From a virus: a stretch of DNA of 45,888 nt. Shown here one piece after another: positions 3,660-32,308 of this stretch. The notes below the pieces were generated by a model. That model did no database searches and was not told the DNA's origin. It was given only the letters and a program-made list of their open reading frames with translations. The position numbers and the translations under genes are program-made. Position 1 is the first letter of the stretch; every line of letters begins with the position of its first letter. Location of the stretch: IMG/VR virus record IMGVR_UViG_3300045253_000009, positions 1 through 45,888 of that record; one strand, 5' to 3'.

Positions 3660-3735
3660 TGGGTGCGGCAGGACTCGAACCTGCACGATATACCGACCAA
3701 GTGGTCGGCTGCTTTGCCAATTAAGCTACACACCC
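3660..3735 (-). tRNA. tRNA-like gene with abnormal anticodon arm (no anticodon assigned)
   Basis: Acceptor GGGTGTG pairs with CGCACCC, the D-arm is GCTT/AAGC, the T-arm is GCAGG-TTCGAGT-CCTGC, and the discriminator is A; CCA is not encoded. The anticodon arm is abnormal. With stem GCCGA/TCGGT the loop is eight bases (CCACTTGG) without U33, and its ends can pair to close the loop to ACTT. The variable region is seven bases. The stem matches that of tRNA-Asn, so it may derive from such a tRNA. It lies in the only gap between the 154-aa gene and the helicase, just after a UUCG-type hairpin. It may be a decoy, a frameshifting tRNA or a processing signal. Confidence 0.7.
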
Positions 3736-9111: not shown

Positions 9112-9186
9112 TGGGTGGTGGGGGAATCGAACCCTCCGGTCATGCCTGACCTGCCTTCACGTAGATGAGTACGCGATACTCCACCC
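9112..9186 (-). tRNA. Degenerate tRNA-like element, 75 nt
   Basis: Acceptor GGGTGG pairs with CCACCC followed by A. A T-arm-like hairpin GAGGG-TTCGATT-CCCCC has one A-C mismatch. There is no normal D-arm. A stem GCGTA/TACGT closes a six-base loop CTCATC, one base short of a Met-like CTCATNN loop, and GGTCA/TGACC forms a further hairpin. It lies at the convergent end of the rightward island, next to the terminator. Not a normal tRNA by inspection. Confidence 0.55.
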
Positions 9187-10497: not shown

Positions 10498-10542
10498 GTG
10501 GGCGCCCAGGACTCGAACCTGGGTGTATGCCATTCGCCCCAC
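10498..10542 (-). ncRNA. Minimal tRNA-like element: acceptor plus T-arm only
   Basis: GTGGG pairs with CCCAC, and inside is a strong T-arm, CCCAGG-TTCGAGT-CCTGGG, with a perfectly canonical T-loop. Only about 14 bases replace the D and anticodon arms. An acceptor/T-arm minihelix is the known minimal substrate of RNase P, so a processing role is plausible. Lies between the 116-aa gene stop (10546) and the 77-aa gene. Confidence 0.6.
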
Positions 10543-12335: not shown

Positions 12336-12357
12336 GGAACGCCCCCTCGGGCGTTCC
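12336..12357. repeat. 9-bp perfect hairpin paired with the next tRNA-like element
   Basis: GGAACGCCC/GGGCGTTCC around CCTC. On the minus strand it lies directly after the element at 12363-12413 and before the kinase ribosome-binding site. Confidence 0.6.
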
Positions 12358-12362
12358 CTAGC

Positions 12363-12413
12363 GAGCGGGGAGAGAATCGCACTCTCGCTAGAGGCTTGGT
12401 TACCCCTCCGCTC
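12363..12413 (-). ncRNA. tRNA-like element without an anticodon arm (copy A)
   Basis: GAGCGG pairs with CCGCTC as acceptor. GAGG-GGTAACCAAG-CCTC forms a D-like arm and GAGAG-TGCGATT-CTCTC a T-like arm with a seven-base T-loop (T54, C56 and A58 kept). A TAGC linker replaces the anticodon arm. Nearly the same sequence and fold occurs at 14035-14083, and the fold also at 13498-13547, with compensated stem changes. It lies between the phosphoribosyltransferase and kinase-like genes. Confidence 0.7.
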
Positions 12414-12446
12414 CAGCACCTCACCTCCGGCGAGGATGCGCATCTT

Positions 12447-12908
12447 TCACCAACCGAGTTCAGCCCAGTCGGACCGAAAGTCCTCGAACCTGCCCTTTGC
12501 GTCGTAGTTGTCATCGCGGTAGGCCTGGTACATGTACTGCCCGACCATCTCGGTGGGCGTGACCGTCTCCCAGCGCTTCGCTTCATCGTGTGCAGCGCTG
12601 ATCTTCTCGATCACCCTCTTGCGGGTCACCCCGGACGAGACGAAGTCGTCCACGAAGATCCAACGGGCACCGAGTTGACCAACCAGTCGACCCTTGCCAT
12701 GGTGGGAGTCGTCCGTCTCCTTGCGGATCAGAACGAACTTCTTACCCATGGCCAGGGCGAGAGCAGGGATCACGATGCTGCCCGAGAAGCCAGTGCCGAC
12801 CAACGTGTCGAAATCGACGTCGGCCAGTCGCTCCTGTGCAGTCTCGATCACCCCAGCCAGGTTGAAGGTAGCCTCATCCATGTACCACGTCTTGAACTTG
12901 GTCATCAT
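12447..12908 (-). CDS. Phosphoribosyltransferase-family protein
   Basis: 153 aa. RWIFVDDFVSSGVTRKRV (82-99) is the PRPP-binding loop, with two Asp and the SSG(V)T turn; VGTGFSGSIVIPALAL is the earlier family segment, and KFVLIRKE the beta strand between. Family members join a base to PRPP or act as regulators. The base cannot be told; salvage or NAD-related use is possible. Start ATG at 12908 follows AAGGGAA; a second ATG is next to it. Confidence 0.8.
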   Translation of the reverse strand: MMTKFKTWYMDEATFNLAGVIETAQERLADVDFDTLVGTGFSGSIVIPALALAMGKKFVLIRKETDDSHHGKGRLVGQLGARWIFVDDFVSSGVTRKRVIEKISAAHDEAKRWETVTPTEMVGQYMYQAYRDDNYDAKGRFEDFRSDWAELGW

Positions 12909-12918
12909 GCTTCCCTTC

Positions 12919-12939
12919 AGGGGCGCCCTGCGCGCCCCT
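12919..12939. repeat. 8-bp perfect hairpin AGGGGCGC/GCGCCCCT
   Basis: Loop CCTGC. It sits just upstream of the phosphoribosyltransferase start and downstream of the T-arm hairpin at 12948-12968, the same pairing of tRNA-like element and GC hairpin seen elsewhere. Confidence 0.55.
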
Positions 12940-12947
12940 CGTGAGCG

Positions 12948-13014
12948 GGGAGGGGTTCGAACCCTCCCAGCGACGCAGCGAAGCTGCTAGCGAGAGCTAG
13001 CGAACTTCGTTCGC
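12948..13014 (-). ncRNA. T-arm hairpin joined to a three-hairpin module
   Basis: GGGAGGG-TTCGAAC-CCCTCCC (12968-12948) is a 7-bp T-arm with a canonical T-loop, and is followed by CCGCTCAC as in the 14035 element. Upstream are three consecutive hairpins: GCGAAC/GTTCGC (13000-13014), TAGC/GCTA (12988-12999) and GCAGC/GCTGC (12975-12987). The three-hairpin module has a counterpart at 15061-15109 with different stem sequences but similar loops. Fills the gap between the lipoprotein and phosphoribosyltransferase genes. Confidence 0.55.
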
Positions 13015-13049
13015 GACGCACCAGGCCTGGATACCTGACGCCCTACCTT

Positions 13050-13457
13050 TTAGCCCTCTGAACTGTTCTGGAAGTCAACGTCCGGGATCAGTTCCGAAGG
13101 ACGGAACACGACCTTGTAGTGGTAGCCGCTCACCTTGGCAGGTGAGCCCTGCTCCACTGTGTACGTGACGTTGTCCGACAGGCCAGCGTAGAACTTCTTG
13201 TACGCACCAGGGCCAGTCTTGCAGGTGACCACAAGACTCTTCGGGTCATCGATGTTGATGGAGCAAGCTCCAGTGATGACCATCAGGTACTTGTCCGTGA
13301 TGCCGTTGATCACGACGATACGGCGGTTGACCTGAAAGTGGTCGGCAGCCTTGGATACGTTGTTCGAAGCCGTATCGGCTTCGCTCGTACAGGCTGTCGC
13401 ACCTATGCCCAGAGTGACCGCTGCCATGGCAGCAGCAGCGATGTGGCTCTTACGCAT
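13050..13457 (-). CDS. Secreted lipoprotein, probable beta-sandwich type
   Basis: 135 aa. N-terminal signal MRKSHIAAAAMAAVTLGIGA ends in a lipobox-like ATAC, with Cys23 as the lipidated residue. The mature part (FQVNRRIVVINGITDKYLMV, SINIDDPKSLVVTCKTG) is beta-rich and matches, from memory, a lipoprotein common in Streptomyces phages. It would sit on the outer face of the host membrane. Exclusion of other phages is a possible role (inference). Confidence 0.75.
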   Translation of the reverse strand: MRKSHIAAAAMAAVTLGIGATACTSEADTASNNVSKAADHFQVNRRIVVINGITDKYLMVITGACSINIDDPKSLVVTCKTGPGAYKKFYAGLSDNVTYTVEQGSPAKVSGYHYKVVFRPSELIPDVDFQNSSEG

Positions 13458-13497
13458 TTATGTCCTCATTCCCGAGAAGACACCTTGTCTTCCCAGC

Positions 13498-13547
13498 GGG
13501 TGTCAGGATCTTTGCATCTCCTGCGGAGGCTTGAGTACCTCTCACCC
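13498..13547 (-). ncRNA. tRNA-like element without an anticodon arm (copy C)
   Basis: GGGTG/CACCC acceptor, GAGG-TACTCAAG-CCTC D-like arm, and CAGGA-GATGCAAAGA-TCCTG T-like arm containing TGCAAAG. The D-like loop keeps the CAAG seen at 12363 and 14035, while acceptor and T-arm stems differ but still pair. Just upstream on the minus strand is a GGGGC/GCCCC hairpin. It sits between the 124-aa gene and the lipoprotein gene. Confidence 0.55.
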
Positions 13548-13612
13548 TTGGGGCTACTTTGTGCCCCTATCGACCCCTCTCGGGACGGTGCCTCCGAGGT
13601 TGGCCGAGTCTT

Positions 13613-13987
13613 TCAGCTCTGGTAGTACTCCGTGACGGCAGCCAGCGCGGCGCCCCACGGTTCGCCGCGATCCTGTCGGTACTGAATGCTGTCCAACAGG
13701 TTCTTGACTCCATCTCCGGAGTAAACTGTTCCCTCGTCCGAGAGGCGACCCAAGAGGATGCCAGCCGCGAGGCCGGGACCGCTGCCCTCCGTGTCGGCCT
13801 TCACCAGGCGCTCCAAGGGGACGCCCTGAGCCGCCAGAAAGCGACCCACGATGCAGTCAGGCTTGCCCTCGTGAACGTAGACGCAGCTGCCGTCACGCTC
13901 AGCCCTGGGGTAGATGAAATCCTCACCCTGCTCCTCCACCAGAGCCTTCAGGCCATCAATGGCAGAGTCGAAAGTGATCTCGATCAT
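13613..13987 (-). CDS. Hypothetical protein, 124 aa
   Basis: ATG at 13987 is preferred because GGAAGGA lies eight bases upstream; an in-frame ATG at 14005 lacks one. Starts MIEITFDSAIDGLKALVEEQ, with a Cys-containing middle (RDGSCVYVHEGKPDCIVGRF) and helical C-terminus. Not recognised. Confidence 0.65.
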   Translation of the reverse strand: MIEITFDSAIDGLKALVEEQGEDFIYPRAERDGSCVYVHEGKPDCIVGRFLAAQGVPLERLVKADTEGSGPGLAAGILLGRLSDEGTVYSGDGVKNLLDSIQYRQDRGEPWGAALAAVTEYYQS

Positions 13988-14008
13988 CTCTTGTGTCCTT
14001 CCCATTCA

Positions 14009-14029
14009 CGCCGCCCCTCATGGGCGGCG
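14009..14029. repeat. 8-bp perfect hairpin CGCCGCCC/GGGCGGCG
   Basis: Loop CTCAT. Follows the tRNA-like element at 14035-14083 on the minus strand, just before the ribosome-binding site of the 124-aa gene. Confidence 0.6.
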
Positions 14030-14034
14030 CTAGT

Positions 14035-14083
14035 GAGCGGGGGAGAGTTGCACTCCACTGAGGGCTTGGTTACCCCTCCGCTC
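14035..14083 (-). ncRNA. tRNA-like element without an anticodon arm (copy B)
   Basis: GAGCGG/CCGCTC acceptor, GAGGG-GTAACCAAG-CCCTC D-like arm, GGAG-TGCAACT-CTCC T-like arm. It shares a 20-base block with copy A (12363-12413), while the T-arm stem is GGAG/CTCC here and GAGAG/CTCTC there, so pairing is kept although sequence changes. It lies between the 38-aa membrane protein gene and the 124-aa gene. Confidence 0.7.
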
Positions 14084-32230: not shown

Positions 32231-32308
32231 AGCGGGGTAGAGCAGCTCGGAGTGCTCGCCAGCCTCATAAGCTGGAGGTCGTGGGTTCAAATCCCACCCC
32301 CGCTACCA
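32231..32308 (+). tRNA. tRNA-Met (CAT), CCA encoded
   Basis: All arms are regular: acceptor AGCGGGG/CCCCGCT, D-arm GAGC/GCTC, anticodon stem CCAGC/GCTGG with loop CTCATAA, T-arm GTGGG-TTCAAAT-CCCAC, then ACCA. Overall it resembles bacterial initiator tRNA (A11-T24, the T-loop and D-loop), but base 1 pairs with 72 and the three GC pairs at the base of the anticodon loop are missing, which are elongator traits. It lies between structural gene 31133 and the scaffold gene, the only normal tRNA in the genome. Confidence 0.93.

Follow-up and report, generated by a model that had tools for sequence, protein, structure and literature searches.

Predicted tRNA-top RNA elements follow early genes of bacterial viruses and may mark operons for cutting by host tRNA-maturation enzymes

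We analyzed a window of 45,888 bases, the linear virus record IMGVR_UViG_3300045253_000009, together with related viral contigs, named phages and bacterial genomes. Judged from these sequences, many bacterial viruses carry a predicted 40-50-nucleotide (nt) RNA with the shape of a tRNA top directly after the stop codon of early genes. The elements occur in phages of Actinomycetota and, by way of prophage-like contigs, in Bacteroidota and others. We think it probable that they act as operon punctuation, at which host RNase P, probably with RNase Z, would cut the operon into monocistronic mRNAs. In the proposed mechanism, a minimal tRNA top (an acceptor stem on a T-arm, with the elbow closed by a D-loop remnant) located after a stop codon would recruit the host tRNA-maturation enzymes. 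A cut by RNase P on its 5′ side would leave the upstream mRNA ending about 8 nt past the stop. A cut by RNase Z after the discriminator purine R73 (or the usual 3′ route where CCA is encoded) would let the downstream mRNA begin with C74-N75. A hairpin at position +3 would then lie at the new 5′ end, where it could provide 5′ protection, followed by the ribosome-binding site (RBS) and start codon. As a benefit, a long early transcript would be converted into separate mRNAs whose ends are standard, and a gene with its element would form an exchangeable cassette.

To collect related contigs we used a protein search with the window's phosphoribosyltransferase-like gene, a search blind to the elements, which returned 25 viral contigs. 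A descriptor combining acceptor stem, T-arm and T-loop TNCRANN then located elements throughout these contigs. The commonest form is 40 nt long, with an acceptor of 5 base pairs (bp), an 11-nt bulge, a 6-bp T stem and a 7-nt loop; its rough consensus is GGGTG-ANYGGCANNCA-CCNNGG-TTCGAGN-CCNNGG-CACCC. The bulge takes the place of the D stem and anticodon arm and retains a D-loop-like AnYGGCA. For 176 elements (183 distinct, with 7 dropped for an identical 3′ flank), stems of 5+6 bp were found in 124 and of 6+6 bp in 40, and the stacked acceptor and T stem measures 11 bp in 127 and 12 or 13 bp in 49. In a second class the middle is somewhat longer and includes a D-like stem; a few elements are longer still. 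An anticodon arm with a 7-nt loop is absent: the middle spans 8-13 nt in the mini-elements and holds only the D-like stem in the other class. All 80 distinct mini-elements in the window and loci L003-L027 lie on the coding strand.

We next examined covariation in 69 mini-elements whose bulge is 11 nt and whose T stem is 6 bp long, a set in which the bulge letters were outside the selection and the T-loop was selected only through TNCRANN. Bulge positions 2 and 8 form a Watson-Crick pair in 68 of 69 (A-U 39, C-G 21, G-C 8, other 1), and bulge 9 pairs with T-loop position 60 in all 69 (A-U 56, G-C 11, U-A 1, C-G 1). Bulge 4 faces T-loop 55 as G-U in 60 and A-G in 9 (the 18-55 contact), and bulge 5 faces T-loop 56 as G-C in 68, with one other (the 19-56 contact). 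Mutual information of the three variable pairs exceeded that of all 2000 shuffles, which keep relatedness. Several pair types occur inside single genomes, and elements with TTC and TGC loops stand side by side in eight loci. The 18-55 and 19-56 contacts are thus as the tRNA elbow requires. By analogy, bulge positions 1-7 would correspond to D-loop positions 14-21, and the bulge 2-8 pair may stand for the 15-48 pair; we know of no standard tRNA counterpart to the bulge 9-60 pair.

Covariation was taken from this unbiased set and not from a pooled set of 135 elements (41 of the 176 were dropped for another bulge or stem length), where the A-U counts at 2-8 and 9-60 are inflated by a letter-fixing pattern; helices 1 and 5 of the model alignment were chosen for pairing and hence carry no evidential weight. 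Acceptor pairing, which lies outside the search pattern, is complete (5/5) in 71 of 88 unique matches, versus 5 and 2 when one strand is slid by 6 and 8 nt, and bulge 2-8 is Watson-Crick in 83 of the same 88. In an earlier set the acceptor paired in 39 of 46, against 3-4 of 46 slid by 5-9 nt but 17 of 46 slid by 3 nt. Among 33 elements of named phages, the 2-8 and 9-60 pairs are each Watson-Crick in 30 and 18-55 is G-U in 32 (other, 1), with no compensated 18-55 change in this set.

The elbow contacts recur, by eye, in the class with a D-like stem. A TGC T-loop goes with a D-loop ending in AAG in 9 of 12 elements (three in the window, two in L004, and those of L006, L008, L015 and L024; L022, L049 and L059 disagree). 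A TTC loop goes with GG in 5 of 5, a count that leaves out one element of the non-coding strand and three mini-elements that had been read in a longer frame; the window element at 12943-13043 (TTC, CCAGG) agrees. The conserved CAAG loop end that a prior reading of the window had singled out is probably the D-loop dinucleotide A18-G19 meeting G55-C56 of the TGC T-loop.

The position of the elements is as constrained as their fold. In Caliburn, Damien, ObLaDi and two Rope stretches, all 37 counted elements lie between co-directional annotated genes, whose co-transcription we assume, and of the 41 gaps of 61-299 nt in these four actinophages, 37 contain one; the count leaves out two other-strand ObLaDi elements that by coordinates also lie between co-directional genes. 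The typical order is stop codon, about 8 nt, element, R73-C74-N, often a hairpin, RBS and start, with the next start about 45 nt past the element. Of the 176 elements, 152 have the stop codon of a frame of at least 40 codons no more than 60 nt upstream, at a median of 8 nt, compared with 1325 of 3520 random same-strand places (median 27 nt) and 87 of 176 on the opposite strand. In the same 176, N-1 is A in 133, N73 is a purine (A or G) in 162 and N74 is C in 161; C occupies N75 in only 9. In the 5+6-bp class, R73-C74 is present in 123 of 124. A hairpin follows the element in 110 of 176, versus 19.4% of shuffles, and begins at an offset of 3 nt in 50 of these 110.

These flanks bear on three other explanations. 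One, possible but unlikely, is that transcript ends are made otherwise and that the tRNA top with its hairpin stabilizes an mRNA by blocking nucleases at its 3′ (or 5′) end. The usual location just after a stop, the GC-rich stacked helix and the frequent second hairpin downstream would suit this function, but plain hairpins would suffice for it, and the kept D-loop/T-loop contacts and R73-C74 point to tRNA enzymes. U-less terminators have been described for actinophages, and stem-loops at gene ends with a second hairpin downstream could likewise represent transcription terminators or attenuators. We regard this as very unlikely: no T-run follows the elements in the contexts read by eye, the elements occur within runs of genes, where the next start is about 45 nt away and little space is left for a separate promoter, and the letters of the T-loop and D-loop would be irrelevant to termination. 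Finally, the short distances to the stop codon (about 8 nt) and the start codon (about 45 nt) could reflect translational coupling of termination to the next initiation, via ribosome contacts with the tRNA elbow. This is highly improbable, as the elements have no anticodon, the start spacing equally fits a uniform 5′ untranslated region, and no gene starts on the same strand near the window element at 9113-9186.

Support for operon punctuation also comes from gaps that hold different tRNA tops in different viruses. The slot that is flanked in the window by gene 4232-3768 and the AAA/DnaB-like gene 3473-2703 contains a tRNA top in 12 of 12 records in which both genes lie close together (L007, L009 and L010 are near-identical), as follows:

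Slot body tRNA-like: the window, L015 and L018.
Slot body tmRNA-acceptor-like: L004, L005, L007, L009, L010, L011, L016 and L017.
Slot body a mini-element: L020.

Similarly, at 23 other loci with enough sequence around the phosphoribosyltransferase-like gene (L011-L013 are one sequence), a mini-element lies downstream of its stop in 20, mostly 10 nt past it and with differing stems (none in L004, L021 and L027), and upstream of its start in 21. The strict slot scan overlooks mini-elements with a 5-bp acceptor that a looser scan finds, and the looser scan overlooks the window's own D-stem element owing to an unpaired C. Because different tops occupy the same gap, the tRNA top as such appears to be under selection.

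The many copies per genome (14 in Rope) and an elbow retained despite fully different stems could alternatively indicate a trans-acting decoy, a mini-tRNA directed at host factors such as tRNA-cutting defenses, synthetases, EF-Tu or tRNA-modifying enzymes. A decoy would have no need of a fixed post-stop position, and different tops in one slot would be unexpected; we consider it distinctly unlikely. That the elements are decaying tRNA genes or chance hairpins has a practically negligible probability in our estimate. The window does contain one tRNA-like gene whose anticodon arm is abnormal, but the compensatory changes, the coding-strand count of 80/80 and the conservation of slots contradict this explanation.

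Within the window, the sequence-only reading had described three covarying tRNA-like copies at 12363-12413, 13498-13547 and 14035-14083, all of which are present. Their tRNA-like reading is on the minus strand, which is the coding strand of the left arm (the left 15 kb carries genes mostly on this strand), and they lie in gaps between minus-strand genes. The block shared by the copies 12413-12363 and 14083-14035 is GAGCGGAGGGGTAACCAAGCC, 21 nt read 5′ to 3′ on the minus strand. As claimed, their T-arms differ yet pair (GAGAG-TGCGATT-CTCTC and GGAG-TGCAACT-CTCC, respectively); the former copy has a single unpaired C separating T stem and acceptor, and the latter a T stem of 4 bp plus one mismatch. 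The copy 13547-13498 indeed combines acceptor GGGTG/CACCC, D stem GAGG/CCTC and T stem CAGGA/TCCTG, with a T loop of 10 nt (TGCAAAG inside) and not 7 nt. This pairing had been taken as strong evidence within one genome; the pairing holds, and its strength from the window alone is only modest. A descriptor of this class run on the window recovered the copies 12413-12363 and 14083-14035 plus one chance match within a gene and missed the copy 13547-13498, while dinucleotide-shuffled windows gave 0.37 matches each. A covariance model of the mini-elements, R1, built from 30 sequences and used with a match threshold of E <= 0.001, was insignificant on all three copies (E 1.5-3.9 each). What lifts the three copies beyond chance are their D-stem homologues in related contigs and four more same-strand tRNA-like elements in the window (3735-3660, 9186-9113, 10539-10500 and 13043-12943). 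Family comparison thus supports a selected tRNA-like fold, about 50 nt long, that has D-like and T-like arms but no anticodon arm, to which we add its strand, the smaller 40-nt form, the fixed position after stop codons and a likely function.

The elements and accompanying hairpins, the latter read from the sequence and from a fold of the region, are arranged as follows:

14035-14083, minus strand: tRNA-like element with D-like stem (copy 1), T-loop TGCAACT, D-loop ending in AAG, upstream of gene 14005-13613; its homologue at L004:3967-4014 has perfect stems.
14009-14029, minus strand: hairpin CGCCGCCC..GGGCGGCG, 5 nt past the element 14035-14083 (linker ACTAG) and upstream of gene 14005-13613.
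13498-13547, minus strand: tRNA-like element with D-like stem (copy 2), acceptor GGGTG/CACCC, T-loop region TGCAAAG, a weak R1 match at its exact ends (10.6 bits, E 1.5); homologue at L004:5088-5137.
13476-13492, minus strand: hairpin GAAGACA-AGG-TGTCTTC after the element 13498-13547, upstream of the gene at 13457-13050, which resembles a recombination directionality factor (RDF).
12943-13043, minus strand: longer tRNA-like element with extra hairpins, acceptor GGGCG/CGCTC, D-like arm CAGG-TATCCAGG-CCTG, T-loop TTCGAAC, upstream of the phosphoribosyltransferase-like gene 12908-12447.
12920-12939, minus strand: hairpin AGGGGCGC..GCGCCCCT after the element 12943-13043, linker ACG.
12363-12413, minus strand: tRNA-like element with D-like stem (copy 3), T-loop TGCGATT, D-loop ending in AAG, about 34 nt past the stop of gene 12908-12447.
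12336-12357, minus strand: hairpin GGAACGCC..GGGCGTTCC after the element 12363-12413 (linker GCTAG), followed by RBS AGGAGGAC and the ATG of gene 12316-11834.
10500-10539, minus strand: 40-nt mini-element GGGCG-AATGGCATACA-CCCAGG-TTCGAGT-CCTGGG-CGCCC (R1 62.9 bits, E 6.8e-16), directly after the stop of gene 10899-10546 and followed in order by ACTAG, hairpins, RBS and ATG.
9113-9186, minus strand: tRNA-like element, acceptor GGGTGG/CCACCC, T-loop TTCGATT, then ACT; it closes a run of minus-strand genes and faces a reading frame on the plus strand, and it has a sub-threshold tRNA-Sec match (20.9 bits).
3660-3735, minus strand: tRNA-like element with abnormal anticodon arm (Rfam tRNA 51.8 bits; ARAGORN tRNA-??? 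with a 2-nt "anticodon"), its acceptor end running into A-C and at once the GTG codon of a short frame.

If the last element were cut after its discriminator, a nearly leaderless mRNA would result. The gene 13050-13457 (minus strand) is a homologue of the recombination directionality factor family (phrog_478, PF25682).

We infer the involvement of tRNA-maturation enzymes because the kept features (stacked helix, elbow, discriminator purine and C74) are those that these enzymes read. In hosts whose tRNA genes lack CCA, pre-tRNAs are processed via RNase Z, and the avoidance of C75 fits such hosts and this route. Of 16 tRNA genes that could be read in five Bacteroidota genomes, 15 lack CCA (two more loci were unreadable), as do the elements; in a Steroidobacteraceae (gammaproteobacterial) genome, CCA is encoded in 4 of 4 tRNA genes read and the element ends in ACCA. 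Elements of the ACCA type also occur in six further viral contigs or genomes; an encoded ACCA, as in L046, L104, L115 and L120-L123, may mark hosts with CCA-encoding tRNA genes. For RNase P, a review describes hairpins of acceptor, T stem and T-loop that are cut correctly by the bacterial (E. coli) RNase P RNA, an S domain that binds the elbow, a 12-bp stack that serves as ruler, and a P15 loop that pairs with the RCC of RCCA, that is, R73-C74-C75 (PMC11143913).

Several observations weigh against cutting by these enzymes as a general explanation. The commonest form (124 of 176) stacks 11 bp, one below the 12-bp ruler given in that review (PMC11143913), and with C75 and A76 mostly absent the RCCA contact would be only partial. 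The CCA comparison rests on few genomes. No stop codon lies nearby in 24 of 176 elements by the 40-codon/60-nt test, and 66 of 176 lack a hairpin by the threshold used. Moreover, phages can do without the element: Manuel and Immanuel3, relatives by tail protein, and phage phiC31 have no R1 match.

The covariance search for further copies that had been suggested for the window found them widely: R1 matches 31 of 35 records, some of which supplied training sequences that match by construction. These are the window, 24 of the 25 phosphoribosyltransferase contigs (G002, G019 and G025 weakly) and six named phages picked through a prior BLAST match to an element: Caliburn (10 matches), Rope (14), LittleE (4), ObLaDi (7), Pitbull (1) and Damien (8). 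R1 found no match in Manuel, Immanuel3, phiC31 or contig G020. The window's own tail protein has its top matches in Streptomyces phages, at about 52% identity, and megablast of the window region against named phages gave no match. The intergenic repeats of phiC31 were considered and set aside as apparently a different system, without an R1 match; separately, an unannotated tRNA-like element (D-arm, T-arm and an odd middle) lies between phiC31 genes 13 and 14 at L111:31424-31509.

A degenerate pattern occurs in 67 viral-contig stretches and 8 genome-contig stretches; the 8 belong to Bacteroidota, an actinobacterium, a gammaproteobacterium and an unplaced bacterium. Among bacterial genomes, with the centre genome counted in each case, R1 matched 5 of 393 class-mates of Jiangella; in two other phyla it matched 1 of 398 genomes and 1 of 395. 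Because of this rarity, we consider the element mainly a phage feature. One Flavobacterium contig has an element just upstream of a frame that by eye resembles a Mu-like transposase. At L102:3313-3354 and L097:6006-6928 (Flavobacterium and Hymenobacter, with Mu-like/AAA genes nearby), one or two mini-elements lie shortly after TAG triplets. Raw BLAST matches in Riemerella, Rhizobium, Thermus and Synechococcus phage stand outside the family counts.

Known RNA families do not account for the elements. At the gathering or E-value level, Rfam returned only tRNA, plus tmRNA for the longer elements of two relatives. The tRNA cut-off (RF00005) was passed in the window only by 3660-3735 and the true tRNA-Met at 32231, and by no mini-element or D-stem element in L105, L110, L082 or six further loci. 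The best mascRNA score (RF01684), for one Caliburn element, was 26.9 bits, below the cut-off of 42.5. The tmRNA model (RF00023) matched neither the window elements nor the mini-element form; L005:19190-19270 and L016:18456-18537 pass its cut-off with only 81-82 nt, and L007:9270-9347 falls below it. These three loci appear to hold tmRNA-like RNAs of about 80 nt, an acceptor domain without tag frame or pseudoknots, in an intergenic slot. ARAGORN called no mini-element as such; in 13 loci it reported four genes, two of which are tRNA-Pro/Arg calls running over mini-elements. Among annotated proteins, one mini-element lies inside Pitbull gp39 (L109:8916-9062), and two overlap with LittleE gp35 (L107:5683-6072), whose annotation is on the opposite strand; these small open reading frames may be wrong. 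Overall, by the tests run, the element lies outside the tRNA, tmRNA and mascRNA families. Real or decayed tRNAs were rejected on the slot comparison, the ARAGORN results and the elbow covariation, and chance hairpins, modestly excluded from the window alone, on comparison.

The way of working, if our proposal is right, would be that of tRNA punctuation in mitochondria and of mascRNA formation. In mitochondria, tRNA units lie between genes, and their processing frees single-gene mRNAs. The phage elements share with this system structured tRNA units between genes, with co-transcription assumed and cutting predicted; the mitochondrial marks are working tRNAs, whereas the phage elements have no anticodon arm or D stem and cannot decode. 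The mascRNA is processed by RNase P and RNase Z. The mascRNA/MEN-beta RNA family of mammalian long noncoding RNAs is tRNA-like, has no usable anticodon and is processed by tRNA enzymes (PMC9976931). It is eukaryotic, single-copy and a near-complete cloverleaf, and we claim no homology for the phage elements. The tmRNA acceptor domain consists of acceptor, T-arm and D-loop without a D stem, a layout that the phage mini-elements share; their 81-82-nt relatives lack nearly all of tmRNA. Signals resembling tRNA also direct RNase Z or RNase P processing in t-elements of archaea and plant mitochondria and in murine gammaherpesvirus 68 tRNA-miRNA transcripts, which belong to other domains of life and are not the elbow-only 40-nt form. 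The model hairpins of RNase P have the same architecture but are laboratory constructs, while the phage form adds a covarying 11-nt D-loop-like bulge. Among phage RNAs, the RNase P review names P1/P7 C4 RNA, M3 RNA and T4 gene 32 mRNA as non-tRNA substrates (PMC11143913). These are single cases, in contrast to the repeated intergenic family described here. A literature search, with incomplete coverage so that earlier publication is possible, found no description of the mini-element motif. What differs from the known systems is the 40-nt elbow-only form, with its own tertiary covariations and many copies per genome. A bolder reading, which we hold to be unlikely, is a new RNA class, in which viruses of several bacterial phyla cut the tRNA down to a 40-nt elbow as a reusable cut mark between genes, and the excised pieces remain as CCA-tailed mini-tRNAs without anticodon that additionally act on the host in trans.

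With the covariance model, phage genomes can be annotated at sites that are overlooked by tRNA finders, called tRNA-Pro/Arg by them or hidden beneath small predicted proteins. The elements offer a natural minimal candidate substrate for RNase P and RNase Z with a covariation-defined elbow (A18-G55 for G18-U55; bulge 9 with position 60), which could be used for probing enzyme needs and as a compact separator in multi-gene constructs. Bacterial operons normally stay polycistronic. If operon punctuation is correct, dense, standardized operon cutting by the tRNA enzymes of the host would alter the interpretation of early phage gene expression and account for the seemingly "empty" gaps of about 90-100 nt between early genes of some actinophages.

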